A stretch of DNA of 64,000 nucleotides from an uncultured Aeriscardovia sp. (GTDB lineage Bacteria > Actinomycetota > Actinomycetes > Actinomycetales > Bifidobacteriaceae), in NCBI GenBank assembly GCA_903789535.1, contig CAIFES010000006.1:1-64000 (forward strand). The letters run 5' to 3'. The position numbers and the translations under genes are program-made. This document shows, piece after piece, positions 5,938 through 64,000 of the stretch (positions are counted from its first letter, which is position 1; each line of letters opens with the position of its first letter). Under the pieces are notes generated by a model that saw only the letters and a list, made by a program, of their open reading frames with translations, was not told the origin of the DNA and ran no database searches.

Positions 5938-5970
5938 ACGAAAAAAGGAACCGACGAGACGCCGGTTCCC
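5938..5970 (-). terminator. Rho-independent terminator downstream of second tRNA-Ser
   Basis: minus strand GGGAACCGGCGTCTCGTCGGTTCCTTTTTTCG. Confidence 0.75.
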
Positions 5971-5976
5971 TACCCG

Positions 5977-6061
5977 CGGAGGATGCGAGATTCGAACTCG
6001 CGAGGGCGTGAACCCAACCCGCTTTCCAAGCGAGCGCCATAGACCACTAGGCGAATCCTCC
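5977..6061 (-). tRNA. tRNA-Ser(GGA), second copy
   Basis: Identical over 85 nt to 2287-2371. Confidence 0.95.
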
Positions 6062-6437
6062 AACAAGATCCAGATGATCTGACTATCACAGAATAGCCCG
6101 TATGCGGACAAGCGCTTCCGGTCACCGGCAGCCACAGTCTGCGCACGAAAAAGTGCGACCGGGCACCCGCGACTGCAGCGGTTGGGCACCAGCGGCCAGA
6201 CCAGCCGGACATCGAGTGTCGTACAAGCCGGACAACACTTTGTAAATTTTCCGCCATCAACCACCACAATCGCGGGCAGTATTTTTACACTGTCTAGCGG
6301 CACAGGGGCGACGCCGACGACAATCTTCGGCAGCCGACGGCACCCCGCGAACGGAACGGAACGCAACAACAGCACACGCCACACGGCGTCAACGTCATAA
6401 CGCGTCAATGTCAGGAACACAGGAGGCAGGAAGGCTC

Positions 6438-23973: not shown

Positions 23974-24120
23974 ACCCAAAAGCCCCGGTCAGGTTGGTGA
24001 CCGGGGCTGGGAGAGAAGGAGAAGGGAAAGTTTCAATTATCAGTCTGTCTGGGCTGCGGCACCCGTTTCGACCCGTCTGCGGGATATCTCCCGTTTGCTG
24101 ACATCTTCTATATAAGCCGA
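23974..24120 (-). ncRNA. Putative small RNA, family copy 1
   Basis: minus strand: TTATATAGAAG start box ... GATAATTGAAACTTTCCCTTCTCCTTCTCTCCCAGCCCCGGTCACCAACCTGACCGGGGCTTTTGGGTTG; same layout as three other loci in the window. Confidence 0.65.
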
Positions 24121-24310
24121 CGTCGCTTGGCGGATCCTGCCGCGCCACTTCCTATTATCTGTACCTTTGCTGGGAGTTATCTGGGAACCGGACAGTGCCG
24201 CTTCGTCGATACACAGCGTCATCTTTCCCGGTCAGCCCATCTGCCGGGTTTCTCCTGCTTCCTGTTCGGCGTCGTCTCATCCGCGGGTGGCCGTTACCCG
24301 CGGATGGCCG

Positions 24311-25015
24311 TCACCCGCGGATGGTGAGATACTCGTCGACCGGCATACGTCGCATATGCACGTCGTTGATCCGCGCGTCAGTGGCATGGCCGATGCCCAT
24401 CCCCATGACCAGCAGTTCATCATTGGGGATCCCCAGCACCGGCTTGACCTCCTCCGGATACCGGATGAACTCATAGGCGACAATCGAGTCATAGCCGAGG
24501 TTCTTCGCCGCGAGCGCCAGCGTCTGCTCGAATGCGCCGAGATCAAGCAGACTCCATGGCGCCAGCTGCTGGAGCGTGAGATAGACGAAAGTGCCTGCGT
24601 TGAACAGACGCCCGTTTGACAATGCCATCGCCGAAAAAGAATCGACCTGTGCGAGCGCATCGGCGCCCATACGCGCCTTCTCGCGCGAACCCAGGGCGGC
24701 ACGGGCGCTGTATGAGCCGATCTGCGTGCCGAAACCGTCCATATTTCTGCGCGCCTGTGGGCCATAGTCCATCCGGTGGAACACCGGCACATCGGCATGC
24801 CCGCTCTTTCCCGCCATATCAGCTTTCTCGTGGGCGATACGGATTTTCTCCGCCACATCCCCTCTGGCCACATAGACGCGCCACGGCTGCTCGTTGGCCG
24901 AACTCGGCGCGAGTCCCGCCTCCTCGACGATGGCGCGGATGTCCTTCTCCGGCACCGGCCTGCCGTCGAAATCGCGGACGGAATGCCTGCCACGCACCAC
25001 CTGATCGAAATCCAT
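24311..25015 (-). CDS. Nitroreductase family protein (paralog 1)
   Basis: MDFDQVVRGRHSVRDFDGRPVPEKDIRAIVEEAGLAPSSANEQPWRVYV. Confidence 0.88.
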   Translation of the reverse strand: MDFDQVVRGRHSVRDFDGRPVPEKDIRAIVEEAGLAPSSANEQPWRVYVARGDVAEKIRIAHEKADMAGKSGHADVPVFHRMDYGPQARRNMDGFGTQIGSYSARAALGSREKARMGADALAQVDSFSAMALSNGRLFNAGTFVYLTLQQLAPWSLLDLGAFEQTLALAAKNLGYDSIVAYEFIRYPEEVKPVLGIPNDELLVMGMGIGHATDARINDVHMRRMPVDEYLTIRG

Positions 25016-25316
25016 GAGTACTCCTTGTCGTCGTTCGAGGCCGTCGGTCTGCGTTTCCTGATTGGTAGTGTGATCCGCATCCACTGGTCTGTATCTGCTG
25101 ATCCTCGTCCGCTGATAGCCCGGCCACCATGCTGGCAGGCTGCTGGCTGTCACACGGGATTCTTATGACTACAAGTGTCACGCATAGATCGACCAGGCGT
25201 AATACCGTTTCTCGCATCGCTGAAGCGGGAATAATCAGGAACAGCGCTCACTGGGCGCATCAGAATCGCGACCGGTTGCCGTGATGGCACCGCGCCCGCT
25301 CGCGATGCTCCCTGAC

Positions 25317-25467
25317 AACAAGAAAACCCCGGGCATTTCGCTCGGGGCATCTCGGATTTGAGGAGAGAAGGAAGGATTCAGTTATCGCGGACGGGGCGGA
25401 ATGGGTGTTCGTCTCGTCCCCGGCTTCCGGGCTGCGGTTCCTTTCGGCTGGTAGCTTCTATATAACC
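25317..25467 (-). ncRNA. Putative small RNA, family copy 2
   Basis: minus strand: GGTTATATAGAAGCTACC...GATAACTGAATCCTTCCTTCTCTCCTCAAATCCGAGATGCCCCGAGCGAAATGCCCGGGGTTTTCTTGTT; nearly identical to copy 3. Confidence 0.7.
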
Positions 25468-25722
25468 GTGGCTTCCTTGGCGGATTCTGTCGTGACAGTT
25501 CCGATAACCTGCGCCTTCGCTGGGAGTTTTCTGGGAACAGCAGACCCTTCCTGAACTTCTCATGCCACCCGTCCCACCTGTGCGCGGGTTTGTGCGCACA
25601 ACAGCCGGCGGCCTGTCTGCAGTCTATGGCACTTACGACGACCGAACCCTGCCGCACCCGCGACAGCCCGAACCTCGTCTCTGACTGCCTGCACAGATGT
25701 TCATCTATTGCATAGATGCCAT

Positions 25723-26526
25723 CTATTTACGGATGGTGAGGTACTCGTCGACCGGCATGCGGCGGGCATGCAAGCCGTTGATCGGCGCGTCCGTGGCATG
25801 GCCGACGGCCATGCCGATCACCAGCACCTCGTTGTCCGGGATGCCCAGAACCGGCCTGACCTCCTCCGGATAGCGGACAAGCTCGTAGGCGATCATTGTG
25901 TCATACCCGCGATTCTTCGCCGCCAGGGCGAGCGTCTGCTCGAACGCGCCGAGATCAAGCAGATTCCACTGGTTCATCTTCTGCTGGAGTGCGAGATAGA
26001 TGACGGTACCGGCATTGAACAGACGCGCATTGGTCAGGGCCATAGGCGCCGGATGCGCCGGACGGCCCGCCGCGGCCCCTGCCGCCGCGCTCTGGCCGTG
26101 TTCCTGCGCAGCAGAAAGATCAGGATGATCCGCTCGATCCGGTCCGACGGATTCTTTCTGCGCCTCGTCCTGCACACGCAGACGCGCCTTCTCCTGCGAA
26201 CCGCGGCCGGCGTCAGCCGCGAGGGCACGGGTCTGCACACCGAAGGCGGCCATATTGCGCTGCGGCTGCTCGCCCCACTCGGTGCGATGCGAGGTGGGCA
26301 CATCGGAATGACCGCGCACGCCTGCCGTATCCGCCTTCTCGTGGGCGGCACGAATCCGGTCCATCACCGCGCCTGTGGCCACATAGACACGCCACGGCTG
26401 CGTGTCGCCCCAGCTCGGCGCCAGGCCCGCCTCCTCGACGATGGCCCGGATATCCTTCTCAGGAACCGGTTCCCCGTCAAAATCACGGACGGAATGCCTG
26501 CCACGCACGACCTCATCAAAATCCAT
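25723..26526 (-). CDS. Nitroreductase family protein (paralog 2, with internal low-complexity insertion)
   Basis: MDFDEVVRGRHSVRDFDGEPVPEKDIRAIVEEAGLAPSWGDTQPWRVYV; close paralog of 24311-25015. Confidence 0.88.
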   Translation of the reverse strand: MDFDEVVRGRHSVRDFDGEPVPEKDIRAIVEEAGLAPSWGDTQPWRVYVATGAVMDRIRAAHEKADTAGVRGHSDVPTSHRTEWGEQPQRNMAAFGVQTRALAADAGRGSQEKARLRVQDEAQKESVGPDRADHPDLSAAQEHGQSAAAGAAAGRPAHPAPMALTNARLFNAGTVIYLALQQKMNQWNLLDLGAFEQTLALAAKNRGYDTMIAYELVRYPEEVRPVLGIPDNEVLVIGMAVGHATDAPINGLHARRMPVDEYLTIRK

Positions 26527-26588
26527 GAATGCTCCTTGATATCGATATCGTGTCTGCGAATGTATCGTCTGCGGATGGTATCCCCACA

Positions 26589-26739
26589 ACAAGAAAACCC
26601 CGGGCATTTCGCTCGGGGCATCTCGGATTTGAGGAGAGAAGGAAAAGGATTCAGTTATCGCGGACGGGGCGGAATGGGTGTTCGTCTCGTCTCCGGCTTC
26701 CGGGCTGCGGTTCCTTTCGGCTGGTAGCTTCTATATAAC
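26589..26739 (-). ncRNA. Putative small RNA, family copy 3
   Basis: minus strand GGTTATATAGAAGCTACCAGCCGAAAGG...GATAACTGAATCCTTTTCCTTCTCTCC...CCCCGAGCGAAATGCCCGGGGTTTTCTTGTT. Confidence 0.7.
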
Positions 26740-31498: not shown

Positions 31499-31805
31499 TC
31501 AACCTCCATAACGGTGGCATGCCACCGTTTCGAAAGCAATCCGGCCGTCCGTGGACGGTCATGCCGTCGGCCTTCTCTCCCAAGATTCCGGCGGCTCACA
31601 GGCCTTATGGCCATATCAGTCAGACGCAAAGACACTACTGTAGGCGAAGACGAACCCAACCTTCACATTTCACGATGCTCTTCCTGTCGGGACGGCGCCC
31701 GTGTACGCCCTCGGCCGTGCGGGACCGCTCCCAGCGCAAGCTCTCTGTGCAAGCCCGTTCGGCGCCTCGCACAAGTACTGCGCAAGCCTGTCCGGCGCCT
31801 TGTGC

Positions 31806-47449: not shown

Positions 47450-47665
47450 GCGCGCGCTGTAGCTCAAGCACAATTCCCACGCACCACGGCTCAGGTGAGA
47501 TTCCCACGCGCACCCGGACTCGGGCAAGGTTCCAACGCACTGTGGCCCAGACGAGATTCCCGTGCGCACAGCTCGGACAAGCGACCCGAGCCATAGACCG
47601 CACACCTCGGCTCAGGCAAGGTTCCCGCGCACACGGCTCAGGCAAGCGACCCGAGCCACAGGCCG
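47450..47665. repeat. Degenerate short repeats downstream of crcB
   Basis: Recurring units ggctcaggYRagattcccRcgcgcac and gctcRgRcaagcgacccgagccAYaggcc; the last includes the crcB stop codon. Confidence 0.6.
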
Positions 47666-48015
47666 AGCGCCCCGGCAATAAGCGAGAGCGCGAACATACC
47701 GCCCGTATGCCACAGCGCGCGCCACGGGTGTTCGCCACGCAGCAGACGCACGCCCTCGACCTCCGCGGTAGAGAACGTCGAATAGCCGCCGAGCAGCCCT
47801 GTGCCGAGCACGAGGCTGACGGCTTTGGGCGCACCGAGCGCCCCCGTCAGGCCGGTCAACAGGCCGAGCAGGAAGCACGCCGAACAGTTGATAGCGAACG
47901 TGCCCATCGGCACAGGAAGTCGATTGTGGGCGGAGACGGCCTGATCGACAAGATAACGGCAGGCGCCGCCCACGCCCGCGGCGAGGCAGAGCAGAAGAAA
48001 GATACCAAAGCTCAT
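47638..48015 (-). CDS. crcB: CrcB/Fluc fluoride channel subunit (short paralog)
   Basis: GGACRYLVDQAV, PMGTFAINCSACFLLGLLTG, GTGLLGGYSTFSTAEVEG. Confidence 0.9.
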   Translation of the reverse strand: MSFGIFLLLCLAAGVGGACRYLVDQAVSAHNRLPVPMGTFAINCSACFLLGLLTGLTGALGAPKAVSLVLGTGLLGGYSTFSTAEVEGVRLLRGEHPWRALWHTGGMFALSLIAGALGLWLGSLA

Positions 48016-50600: not shown

Positions 50601-50671
50601 GACGAAAAACAGGACAACAAACGAAAGACAGGAAAAACAGCCGACACATCATCTGTCTGGGAAAAATCCGT

Positions 50672-50805
50672 CTAAAAAACAGAAAAGCCCCGGGGGAGAA
50701 AGGAAAGACCGGGGCAATCTGCGGAGAGAAGGAGAAGTTGAATTATGACCTCGATGACCTCGCGGCCGCCCCACCTCGTTCTTGCTCAGTGGCGACACCA
50801 TTATG
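50672..50805 (-). ncRNA. Putative small RNA, family copy 4
   Basis: minus strand CATAAT box ... GTCATAATTCAACTTCTCCTTCTCTCCGCAGATTGCCCCGGTCTTTCCTTTCTCCCCCGGGGCTTTTCTGTTTTTT. Confidence 0.62.
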
Positions 50806-50975
50806 AAACCTCGCGGGGCTTGGAGGAGCCTGCCGCTGTTCTTCGGATAACCTTCCGTTTGCCTGAAAGAATCCTGAGAGCAGATCTGACAGCCCCGAAA
50901 CAGTCCTGAGAGAGAACCGCGATACAGGCCAGACAGCAATCAGACAACAAAACAGGCCGGGACAATCCGGATATC

Positions 50976-61547: not shown

Positions 61548-64000
61548 TCAGTCGTTGCGACGGCGTGCGACCACCGTGCCCGCACCGAGGCTGCACAGCA
61601 CGACGGCGGCGCTGATGGCGAGCAGCGAGTCCGCGCCTGTGGAAGCGAGGGCCTTGCCCTGCTTGGACGCGGCAGCCGTGGCACCGTTCTTGGCATTCGG
61701 CTTGGCGCTCGGCGCGGCGGACTTCTTCGTGCCGGTCTGCCTGGCGGAATCCGTGCCCTTGCCGGTGTTCGAGGAATCCGGCTGCGACGGCGTGGATGGC
61801 TTTGCCGGCTTGTCGGCATCCTTGCCGGCGTCCTTGTTACCAGCGTCCTTGCCCGAATCCGCATCGCCGGAATGGCTGTCACCGGAGTGGCCGGGCTGAT
61901 CCGGGTTGTCAGGTTTGCTCGGCTGGTCCGGATTCTCAGGCTTATCAGGCTCGCTCGGCTGGTCAGGGTTGCTCGGCTGATCCGGATTCACAGGCTGATC
62001 AGGGTTGTCAGGTTTGCTCGGCTGGTCAGGGTTCTCCGGCTTGCTGGGCTGATCAGGATTATCCGGCTGGTCGGGATTCTCCGGCTGCTTCGAGGCGTCC
62101 TCATCCGCCTTCTTGGCGGCATCCAGTTCCTTCTTTGCCGCATCAAGCGCCGCCTGGGCGTCGGAGACGGCCTTCGTCGCCTTCGTCACCGCGGCATCTG
62201 CGGCATCAGCCTTCTTCTGGGCCTCCTGCGCCGTCTTCTGGGCGGGGACGAGCGCGGCAACCGCATCGTCATACGCCTTCTGGGCATCGGCGACGTGCTT
62301 GTCATGCTGCTCGGTGGCGGACTTGAGGCTCTCCCTGGCGGCATCGAGGGCGGACTGCGCCTTGTCGACGGCGCCTTGTGCGGCGGCGACCGCCTGATGG
62401 CGCGCGTTGGCGGCCGTCAGATTCTTGTCGGCAGCCTCCTTGGCGGCCTTGGCGGAATCCACCTTCTGCTGCAGATCCGCGAGATCGGCGCTCTTGCCGG
62501 CCTGCGCGTCCTGCAGGGCCTTCCTGGCGGCGGCAAGCGCAGTATCCGCGGCCTGCTGGTCGGCCTGAGCCGTGGCGAGCGCCTTATCAGCGGCGGTCTT
62601 GGCATCCTGCGCGGCGGTGAGGGCCGTGGCGGCCTGGAACTGCGCGGTCTGGGCGGAAGACAGATCGCGTGCTGCGCTCTGCGCGGCGGCCCGCTTTGCC
62701 GCAAGGTCGTTGGCAGCAGCGTCGGCGGCAGCCTGCGCCGTCTCCACCTTCGCCTTCGCGTCCGCATATGCCTGCGGCGCATTATCGAGCTTGCTGACGT
62801 AAGAGTTTACAAGGTTCGTGAACTCGTCGACGGTGTAGTCAGGGGCATCAGACGTCGCCTGGAAAACGACATCCCCGGCTTTCCCATCGGCTTTGTTGAC
62901 GGCAAGACCGAACGACGAACGATTGCTGTCAATGAAGTTGAGAAAATGTCCGACCTGCCCGTAAAAAGCGGAATCGCGCGCATAGACCCATGAGGAATCA
63001 TGACGGTGGGCGCCCAGCGCGGCGTCGGTCTTGGCGGCATTCTCGAACACACGCTTCTCTTCTGTGTACCATCCGTCAAATGGCCAGTTCTTATCCGTCG
63101 TGGTGGTGGACTTGCCAGTCTCGTCCATCGACCAGTGCGTACGGCCTATTTCATTATCAGGGATCGAATCCCACACGCGCGGATCGTTCGAGCCTTCGTA
63201 ATCAGTCGATTGCTCCGGCACGAGCCACGCGACGTTTTCCAGACCCGTTCCATAGAAATCACCGGTCTTCGCCTGGGCATGGTCTTCAACCGCGTTCGAG
63301 AAGAGAGAGTCAAGCTGAGAACCGACGACACCCTCAATGCTGATACCGAGGGTGCGCACTCCTTCCGTGCTACGGATGCTGTTGACCGCCGACAGGTATG
63401 ACAGCGATGCCTGCATTTCCTCAAGGCTCAGCGCGTTCCCCTGCTTGCCAAGTGCCGGCTTGACATACTTGTCGTACCAGACTGCCTTGCCAGAAGCATG
63501 ATTGACGAACAATGTGGTCCGGTCCTGATGCTCATGCGAGGTACCGTCCAGCCAGCTCTTCGCCATCTGAGCATGCGCCTTCTGCGCTGAAGTGGAGTTC
63601 GGATCCGCGATGATGGAATCGAGCAGACCGGACACACCCTTGGCCTTCTGTGCATCGGCATTGTCCGCCGCGGACTTGAGCGAGTCAGCCTGTGCCTTGG
63701 CGGAAGCGAGGGCGCTGTCGGCGGCCGTCTTGGCCGCCTGTGCGTCGGTCACGGCCTGATCCGCTGTCTTCTTTGCATTCTGCTTCGCGGTGACATCGCT
63801 GTCAGCGGCCGACTGCGCGTTCTGTGCGTTCGAGAGGGCTGCGGCGGCCGAGGTGGCTGCCGACTGCCTGGAGGAAACCTGCGAATCAGCCTGTTTCTTT
63901 GCGTTCTCGGCATCGGCAACGGCCTTCTGGGCACCGGAGAGATCCGTGGCACCCTGGGCGGCGGCAAGCGCGTCCTGCGCGGCCTGCAGTTTCTGCGCCG
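61548..64000 (-). CDS. Ala-rich cell-surface protein, partial (N-terminus beyond window), LAXTG-type sorting signal
   Basis: C-terminus LASTGADSLLAISAAVVLCSLGAGTVVARRRND; NPDQPxxP repeats, Ala/Lys coiled coil, globular CAP-like segment (GHFLNFIDSNRSSFGLAV); frame remains open to the window end. Confidence 0.85.
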   Translation of the reverse strand, partial: AQKLQAAQDALAAAQGATDLSGAQKAVADAENAKKQADSQVSSRQSAATSAAAALSNAQNAQSAADSDVTAKQNAKKTADQAVTDAQAAKTAADSALASAKAQADSLKSAADNADAQKAKGVSGLLDSIIADPNSTSAQKAHAQMAKSWLDGTSHEHQDRTTLFVNHASGKAVWYDKYVKPALGKQGNALSLEEMQASLSYLSAVNSIRSTEGVRTLGISIEGVVGSQLDSLFSNAVEDHAQAKTGDFYGTGLENVAWLVPEQSTDYEGSNDPRVWDSIPDNEIGRTHWSMDETGKSTTTTDKNWPFDGWYTEEKRVFENAAKTDAALGAHRHDSSWVYARDSAFYGQVGHFLNFIDSNRSSFGLAVNKADGKAGDVVFQATSDAPDYTVDEFTNLVNSYVSKLDNAPQAYADAKAKVETAQAAADAAANDLAAKRAAAQSAARDLSSAQTAQFQAATALTAAQDAKTAADKALATAQADQQAADTALAAARKALQDAQAGKSADLADLQQKVDSAKAAKEAADKNLTAANARHQAVAAAQGAVDKAQSALDAARESLKSATEQHDKHVADAQKAYDDAVAALVPAQKTAQEAQKKADAADAAVTKATKAVSDAQAALDAAKKELDAAKKADEDASKQPENPDQPDNPDQPSKPENPDQPSKPDNPDQPVNPDQPSNPDQPSEPDKPENPDQPSKPDNPDQPGHSGDSHSGDADSGKDAGNKDAGKDADKPAKPSTPSQPDSSNTGKGTDSARQTGTKKSAAPSAKPNAKNGATAAASKQGKALASTGADSLLAISAAVVLCSLGAGTVVARRRND

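Follow-up and report, generated by a model that had tools for sequence, protein, structure and literature searches.

Three copies of an sRNA between gnd and pgl of an uncultured Aeriscardovia sp., and a fourth copy between dnaB and purA, almost certainly belong to a genuine, conserved family of RNA genes, judging from sequence comparison across the Bifidobacteriaceae. Members of the family are conserved, end in a terminator, carry promoter half-sites in regular phase and covarying hairpins, and are complementary to ribosome-binding sites. We consider it likely that the four copies (c1–c4) are trans-acting anti-SD sRNAs under the control of an OmpR-type response regulator.

sRNA and nitroreductase genes alternate between gnd and pgl

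The window analyzed here is a stretch of 64,000 nucleotides, in which an initial annotation had described alternating nitroreductase and sRNA genes. This alternation was borne out in the interval bounded by gnd and pgl: the minus-strand order is c1, NTR2, c2, NTR1, c3, with strand and spacing as claimed, the c1 terminator ending ~64 nt before the start of NTR2 and the c2 terminator ~300 nt before the start of NTR1. The features of the array and of c4 are as follows.

26588–26732, minus strand: sRNA c1, 5' end ~26732, terminator ~26597–26618; 98% identity to c2, core match
26633–26658, minus strand: c1 core AUAACUGAAUCCUUUUCCUUCUCUCC, putative anti-SD tract; core pattern match
25723–26526, minus strand: NTR2, nitroreductase, 267 aa; PF00881, E 4e-26
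25520–25537, minus strand: c2 promoter, direct repeat TTCCCAG-N4-CTCCCAG of 11-bp period, putative OmpR-type half-sites
25317–25459, minus strand: sRNA c2, terminator ~25327–25347; similarity to c1, core match
25362–25385, minus strand: c2 core, putative anti-SD tract; core pattern match
24311–25015, minus strand: NTR1, nitroreductase, 234 aa; PF00881, E 3.5e-24
24170–24187, minus strand: c3 promoter, direct repeat TTCCCAG-N4-CTCCCAG of 11-bp period
23975–24109, minus strand: sRNA c3, terminator 23981–24008; core match
24010–24040, minus strand: c3 core, putative anti-SD tract; core pattern match
50862–50880, minus strand: c4 promoter, direct repeat CTCTCAG-N4-CTTTCAG
50670–50797, minus strand: sRNA c4, dnaB–purA interval; core match
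50723–50746, minus strand: c4 core, putative anti-SD tract; core pattern match

Copies c1 and c2 are 98–100% identical across ~155 nt. Copy c3 is divergent from both; it keeps the core motif, and 92 nt of its promoter region are 77% like that of c2. The box TTATATAGAAG has 3 occurrences in the window, where 0.05 would be expected, and the pattern ATAAYTSAAN{3,18}CTTCTCYCC matched the whole genome at exactly the c1, c2, c3 and c4 sites (backward control, 0).

The sRNA family is widespread in Bifidobacteriaceae

A looser family pattern, ATAAYTSAANYH followed by twelve pyrimidines (that is, the core AUAAYUGAA and a CU-rich tract), was found in 164 of 189 Bifidobacteriaceae genomes at 1–9 copies per genome, with ~1 match in the backward control. 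The strict core pattern was present in 20/189 of these genomes (control, 0). Across the class, 297 genomes searched with the looser pattern returned this genome and one other (1/296 other class members). Against Rfam 15 the window yielded only two tRNAs at gathering score, and relaxing the E-value gave nothing convincing for the sRNA family; a known Rfam family was rejected as its identity because no match to it reached the gathering cut-off.

Family copies lie at varied sites, often 3' of metG, and sometimes form groups of two or three spanning a few kilobases. In two other Aeriscardovia genomes (L130, L132) a copy is found just upstream of purA, like c4. No nitroreductase was recognized among the neighbors in the sampled contexts, which were assessed as clustered ORFs. 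Since the family occurs at many sites in 164/189 genomes and no pairing with nitroreductases was recognized in the sampled contexts, the copies are best read as independent sRNAs with terminators of their own, as the fourth copy had initially suggested. The same annotation had also considered that c1 and c2 might each be a terminating leader of the enzyme gene that follows (NTR2 and NTR1, respectively), with read-through in certain conditions, and the position of the c1 terminator, just 64 nt before NTR2 on the same strand, would suit such a role. We nevertheless regard it as unlikely: c3, c4 and sampled family copies stand beside varied, unrelated genes, the nitroreductase between gnd and pgl of a sister genome has no such element, and the duplication of c1/c2 is far younger than the split of the enzymes. 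A leader or riboswitch role was rejected for the copies at large because no single gene class accompanies them.

Enzymes and sRNAs most likely reached the interval separately

NTR1 and NTR2 are the sole PF00881 nitroreductases of the genome (86 and 93 bits, respectively, for a cut-off of 23.5), and the solved structures closest to them are plain nitroreductases, e.g. 3gr3 and NfnB. An sRNA+enzyme unit had been proposed to have duplicated. The sequences do not bear this out, as c1 and c2 share 98% identity versus 60% protein identity and 75–81% DNA identity between NTR1 and NTR2, and unit duplication was rejected on this mismatch in age between sRNA copies and enzyme copies. Judged by these identities, c1 and c2 duplicated much more recently than NTR1 and NTR2 split; an older sRNA duplication could be masked by gene conversion between the two sRNA copies.

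Synteny does not favor a duplicated unit either. In the sister Aeriscardovia UMB00048 (L036, L037) one nitroreductase occupies the gnd–pgl interval and another lies elsewhere; the latter is the best relative of NTR2 (65%). Despite the gnd–pgl nitroreductase, the sister's genome (G002) contains no match to the sRNA core. In the nitroreductase tree the four Aeriscardovia genes form one clade (99/98) with unresolved branching inside it. The two Aeriscardovia genomes with a copy upstream of purA (83–84% complete), in which such a nitroreductase was not found, hold two sRNA copies each. This comparison with sister genomes, proposed alongside the initial annotation, points to separate arrival: with a sister nitroreductase lacking the core, and other Aeriscardovia carrying sRNAs where the nitroreductase was not found, the enzymes and the sRNAs most likely came to the gnd–pgl interval independently of each other.

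The block shared by c1 and c2 is delimited by the -10 box and the terminator, leaving the upstream control region outside; consequently c1 is without the upstream repeats of c2, and 11-bp-period repeats are absent from it. An exact ~155-bp block common to c1 and c2, together with many copies per genome at different sites, might also be left by a small MITE-like mobile repeat that carries a terminator by chance. We find this very unlikely, because the sites have diverged strongly and yet keep promoter phasing, hairpins, core and terminator, because inspection of the c1/c2 block by eye showed neither clear terminal repeats nor clear target duplications, and because viral, plasmid and phage searches gave no matches. 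NTR1 and NTR2 are probably bystanders that are expressed on their own, and their link to the sRNAs is probably a local accident. An imperfect palindrome CTCGATAACACGGTTATTACGAG, possibly a repressor operator, lies immediately upstream of the sister's nitroreductase (L037:7960–8000), which suggests that the enzyme is under control of its own. A second, distant nitroreductase-like ORF, divergent, adjoins the gnd–pgl nitroreductase of the sister Aeriscardovia (L037:7328–7915).

Half-sites with an 11-bp period precede the sRNAs

TYNCAG direct repeats of period 11 were found at 19 of 88 copies; shuffles gave 0.1, and other periods 0–4. When 62 non-redundant copies were aligned on the -10 box, CAG at -43, CAG at -32 and AAG at -10 fell into a common 11-bp phase, followed by GGTTATATAG; no good -35 hexamer was evident in the aligned promoters. 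A family promoter contains up to four half-sites of the form TYYCAG/CCAAG. At c2, c3, c4 and in L130/L132 the repeats are 22–24 bp further out, equal to two more 11-bp turns. Promoters that OmpR-type response regulators activate are laid out in this way, and the resemblance to those of CiaR is close. An OmpR/PhoB-type regulator would bind the tandem half-sites, whose 11-bp series ends ~11 bp before the TATATA box, and its binding would most likely be required for transcription of the sRNA.

Two hairpins precede the core and a terminator

Comparison of ~90 copies gives the following order of elements: a promoter, hairpins A and B, AUAAYUGAA, a CU tract that is ~15–25 nt long, and a terminator that is GC-rich and ends in a T-run. 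Members are ~110–145 nt long, with two 5' hairpins and an intrinsic terminator. As the 5' part did not align across all two-hairpin copies, covariation was assessed with MAFFT/RNAalifold in a subset of 10 sequences that represent the commonest type. In this alignment 94% of the hairpin pair cells were standard and both partners had changed in 8 pairs, compared with 2.2 for shuffles and 0–3 for slid controls, with much of the covariation coming from a single divergent copy (L149). The single-sequence folding energy of c3 was below that of shuffles (z -2.0); those of c1, c2 and c4 were not.

The CU tract varies in length and remains pyrimidine-only throughout, which would also be compatible with titration of a CU-specific protein instead of binding to mRNA. 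This explanation appears improbable, given that AUAAYUGAA and the tract mirror a ribosome-binding site and that perfect SD complementarity is present in this genome.

The core mirrors a ribosome-binding site

The complement of the core consists of GAGAGAAGAAGG, a spacer and ATG, an idealized SD-spacer-start arrangement. The SD-complementary part was present in the copies inspected; the C before AUAA, which would pair in the AUG, was found in 42/90 copies, so that complementarity to AUG is not universal. Because GAGAGAAGAAGG-N-ATG occurs on the opposite strand of many copies, a gene for a small protein might begin there. Such an antisense gene is highly improbable: its ATG is kept in under half of the copies (42/90), ORF lengths vary between copies (by eye), and the T-run of the GC hairpin lies on the sRNA strand, with the promoter facing the same way.

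Under the preferred anti-SD reading, the unpaired AUAAYUGAA and CU-rich tract would mirror the SD-spacer-start region, and the CU tract would pair with purine-rich ribosome-binding sites, blocking translation initiation of several mRNAs; messages with GAGAGAAG-type start regions would be the expected targets. We infer the expression, regulator, repression and target set of the family, and purine-rich SDs match any CU tract.

In this genome GGAGAGAAGGA has exactly seven sites. Four belong to the sRNAs, and of the three outside them two lie 4–8 nt before long ORFs. One of these two ORFs, the best predicted target, overlaps the right side of the window and encodes a surface protein of 999 aa whose N-terminus is signal-like and whose C-terminus is LPXTG-like; the predicted duplex of c1 with its SD and start region reaches -32.5 kcal/mol. 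This gene (window 61548–64000, on to ~64548) also contains a repetitive PDNPDQPSKPENPDQP stretch, with repeats at 61894–62114. The other of the two, a nagA-like amidohydrolase, would form a duplex of -32.9 kcal/mol with c4. Its ORF (L230, contig C6 near 80.8 kb) includes a low-complexity segment rich in G as well as three unknown residues, oddities that are probably an assembly defect.

The nitroreductases themselves were rejected as targets, since the start regions of NTR1 and NTR2 gave weak duplexes of -10 to -15 kcal/mol. An amino-acid binding protein encoded in the window had the top duplex energy and was also rejected, because the pairing site lies 5' of its SD. On the minus strand at window 31570–31580, GGAGAGAAGGC differs by one mismatch from the sRNA complement and stands ~70 nt 5' of the start of a kup-like ORF.

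Bifidobacterium start regions with AGAGAAGAAG include those of amino-acid binding proteins, uracil/xanthine and cytosine permeases, a sodium:solute symporter, an ECF riboflavin transporter and a pilin. Secreted or polytopic products made up 12/25 families among the predicted targets versus 6/22 with a control SD, a tendency short of significance (p = 0.23, for classes picked after looking), and replication of the targets in a second genus obtained few real ORFs. For these reasons we present the targets as proposals.

Parallels with known multicopy sRNAs

The streptococcal csRNAs form the CiaRH regulon, and CiaR promoters carry TTTAAG-N5-TTTAAG 10 bp before the -10 box (PMC3091779). Like the csRNAs, the bifidobacterial sRNAs exist in several similar copies per genome, have hairpins plus a terminator and would expose a putatively unpaired SD-complementary region, with its AUG part in under half of the bifidobacterial copies (PMC3091779). 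Their promoters likewise have direct repeats of 11-bp period, the last one 10–11 bp before the -10 box (PMC3091779). Unlike in the csRNAs, the half-site is TYYCAG/CCAAG instead of TTTAAG, up to four half-sites occur, and the host is actinobacterial (PMC3091779). The CiaR repeat NTTAAG-N5-TTTAAG was not found upstream of the sRNAs, where the period of 11 is shared and the half-site is TYNCAG.

LhrC1–5 of Listeria are multicopy sRNAs controlled by LisRK; two loops and a linker hold their three UCCC sites, which block translation, and a cell-wall protein is a target (PMC4132741). The resemblance lies in multiple copies, CU-rich sites, two-component control, blocked translation and a cell-wall target, the last three being only predicted in bifidobacteria; the difference is that a single long CU tract adjoins AUAAYUGAA (PMC4132741). 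We did not find three redundant UCCC sites in the family, whose single CU tract follows hairpin B and precedes the terminator. As half-site, number of CU sites and host group differ, the family is not a member of csRNA or LhrC. The best explanation, by analogy, is that the bifidobacterial sRNAs work like csRNAs and LhrC while being unrelated to them by sequence. More tentatively, multicopy anti-SD sRNAs controlled by a response regulator might form an sRNA regulon across Bifidobacteriaceae that globally restrains the translation of nutrient-uptake and surface proteins, an actinobacterial csRNA/LhrC counterpart of independent origin.

In the main text of two reports on bifidobacterial sRNAs, which deal with transcriptome-based predictions or with housekeeping RNAs and riboswitches, the c1–c4 family is not described (PMC4338058, PMC5746004). 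One of the predictions, B. animalis IGR-136, is an intergenic sRNA of 102 nt adjoining a response regulator (PMC4338058). Compared by its description, it is similarly a small intergenic RNA with a terminator from the same bacterial family (PMC4338058), and it may or may not be a member of the c1–c4 family. A conserved multicopy family with a common promoter code and pairing tract offers direct access to post-transcriptional regulation in a gut genus of importance. In architecture it is a parallel to the systems of Streptococcus and Listeria, whose phylum is unrelated.

Other features of the window

Two near-identical tRNA genes (94% over 103 nt) lie at 2278–2380 and 5968–6070, on either side of an ltaS-like gene. 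A tandem direct repeat of 65 nt, whose units are 77% alike, is located at 47544–47673.
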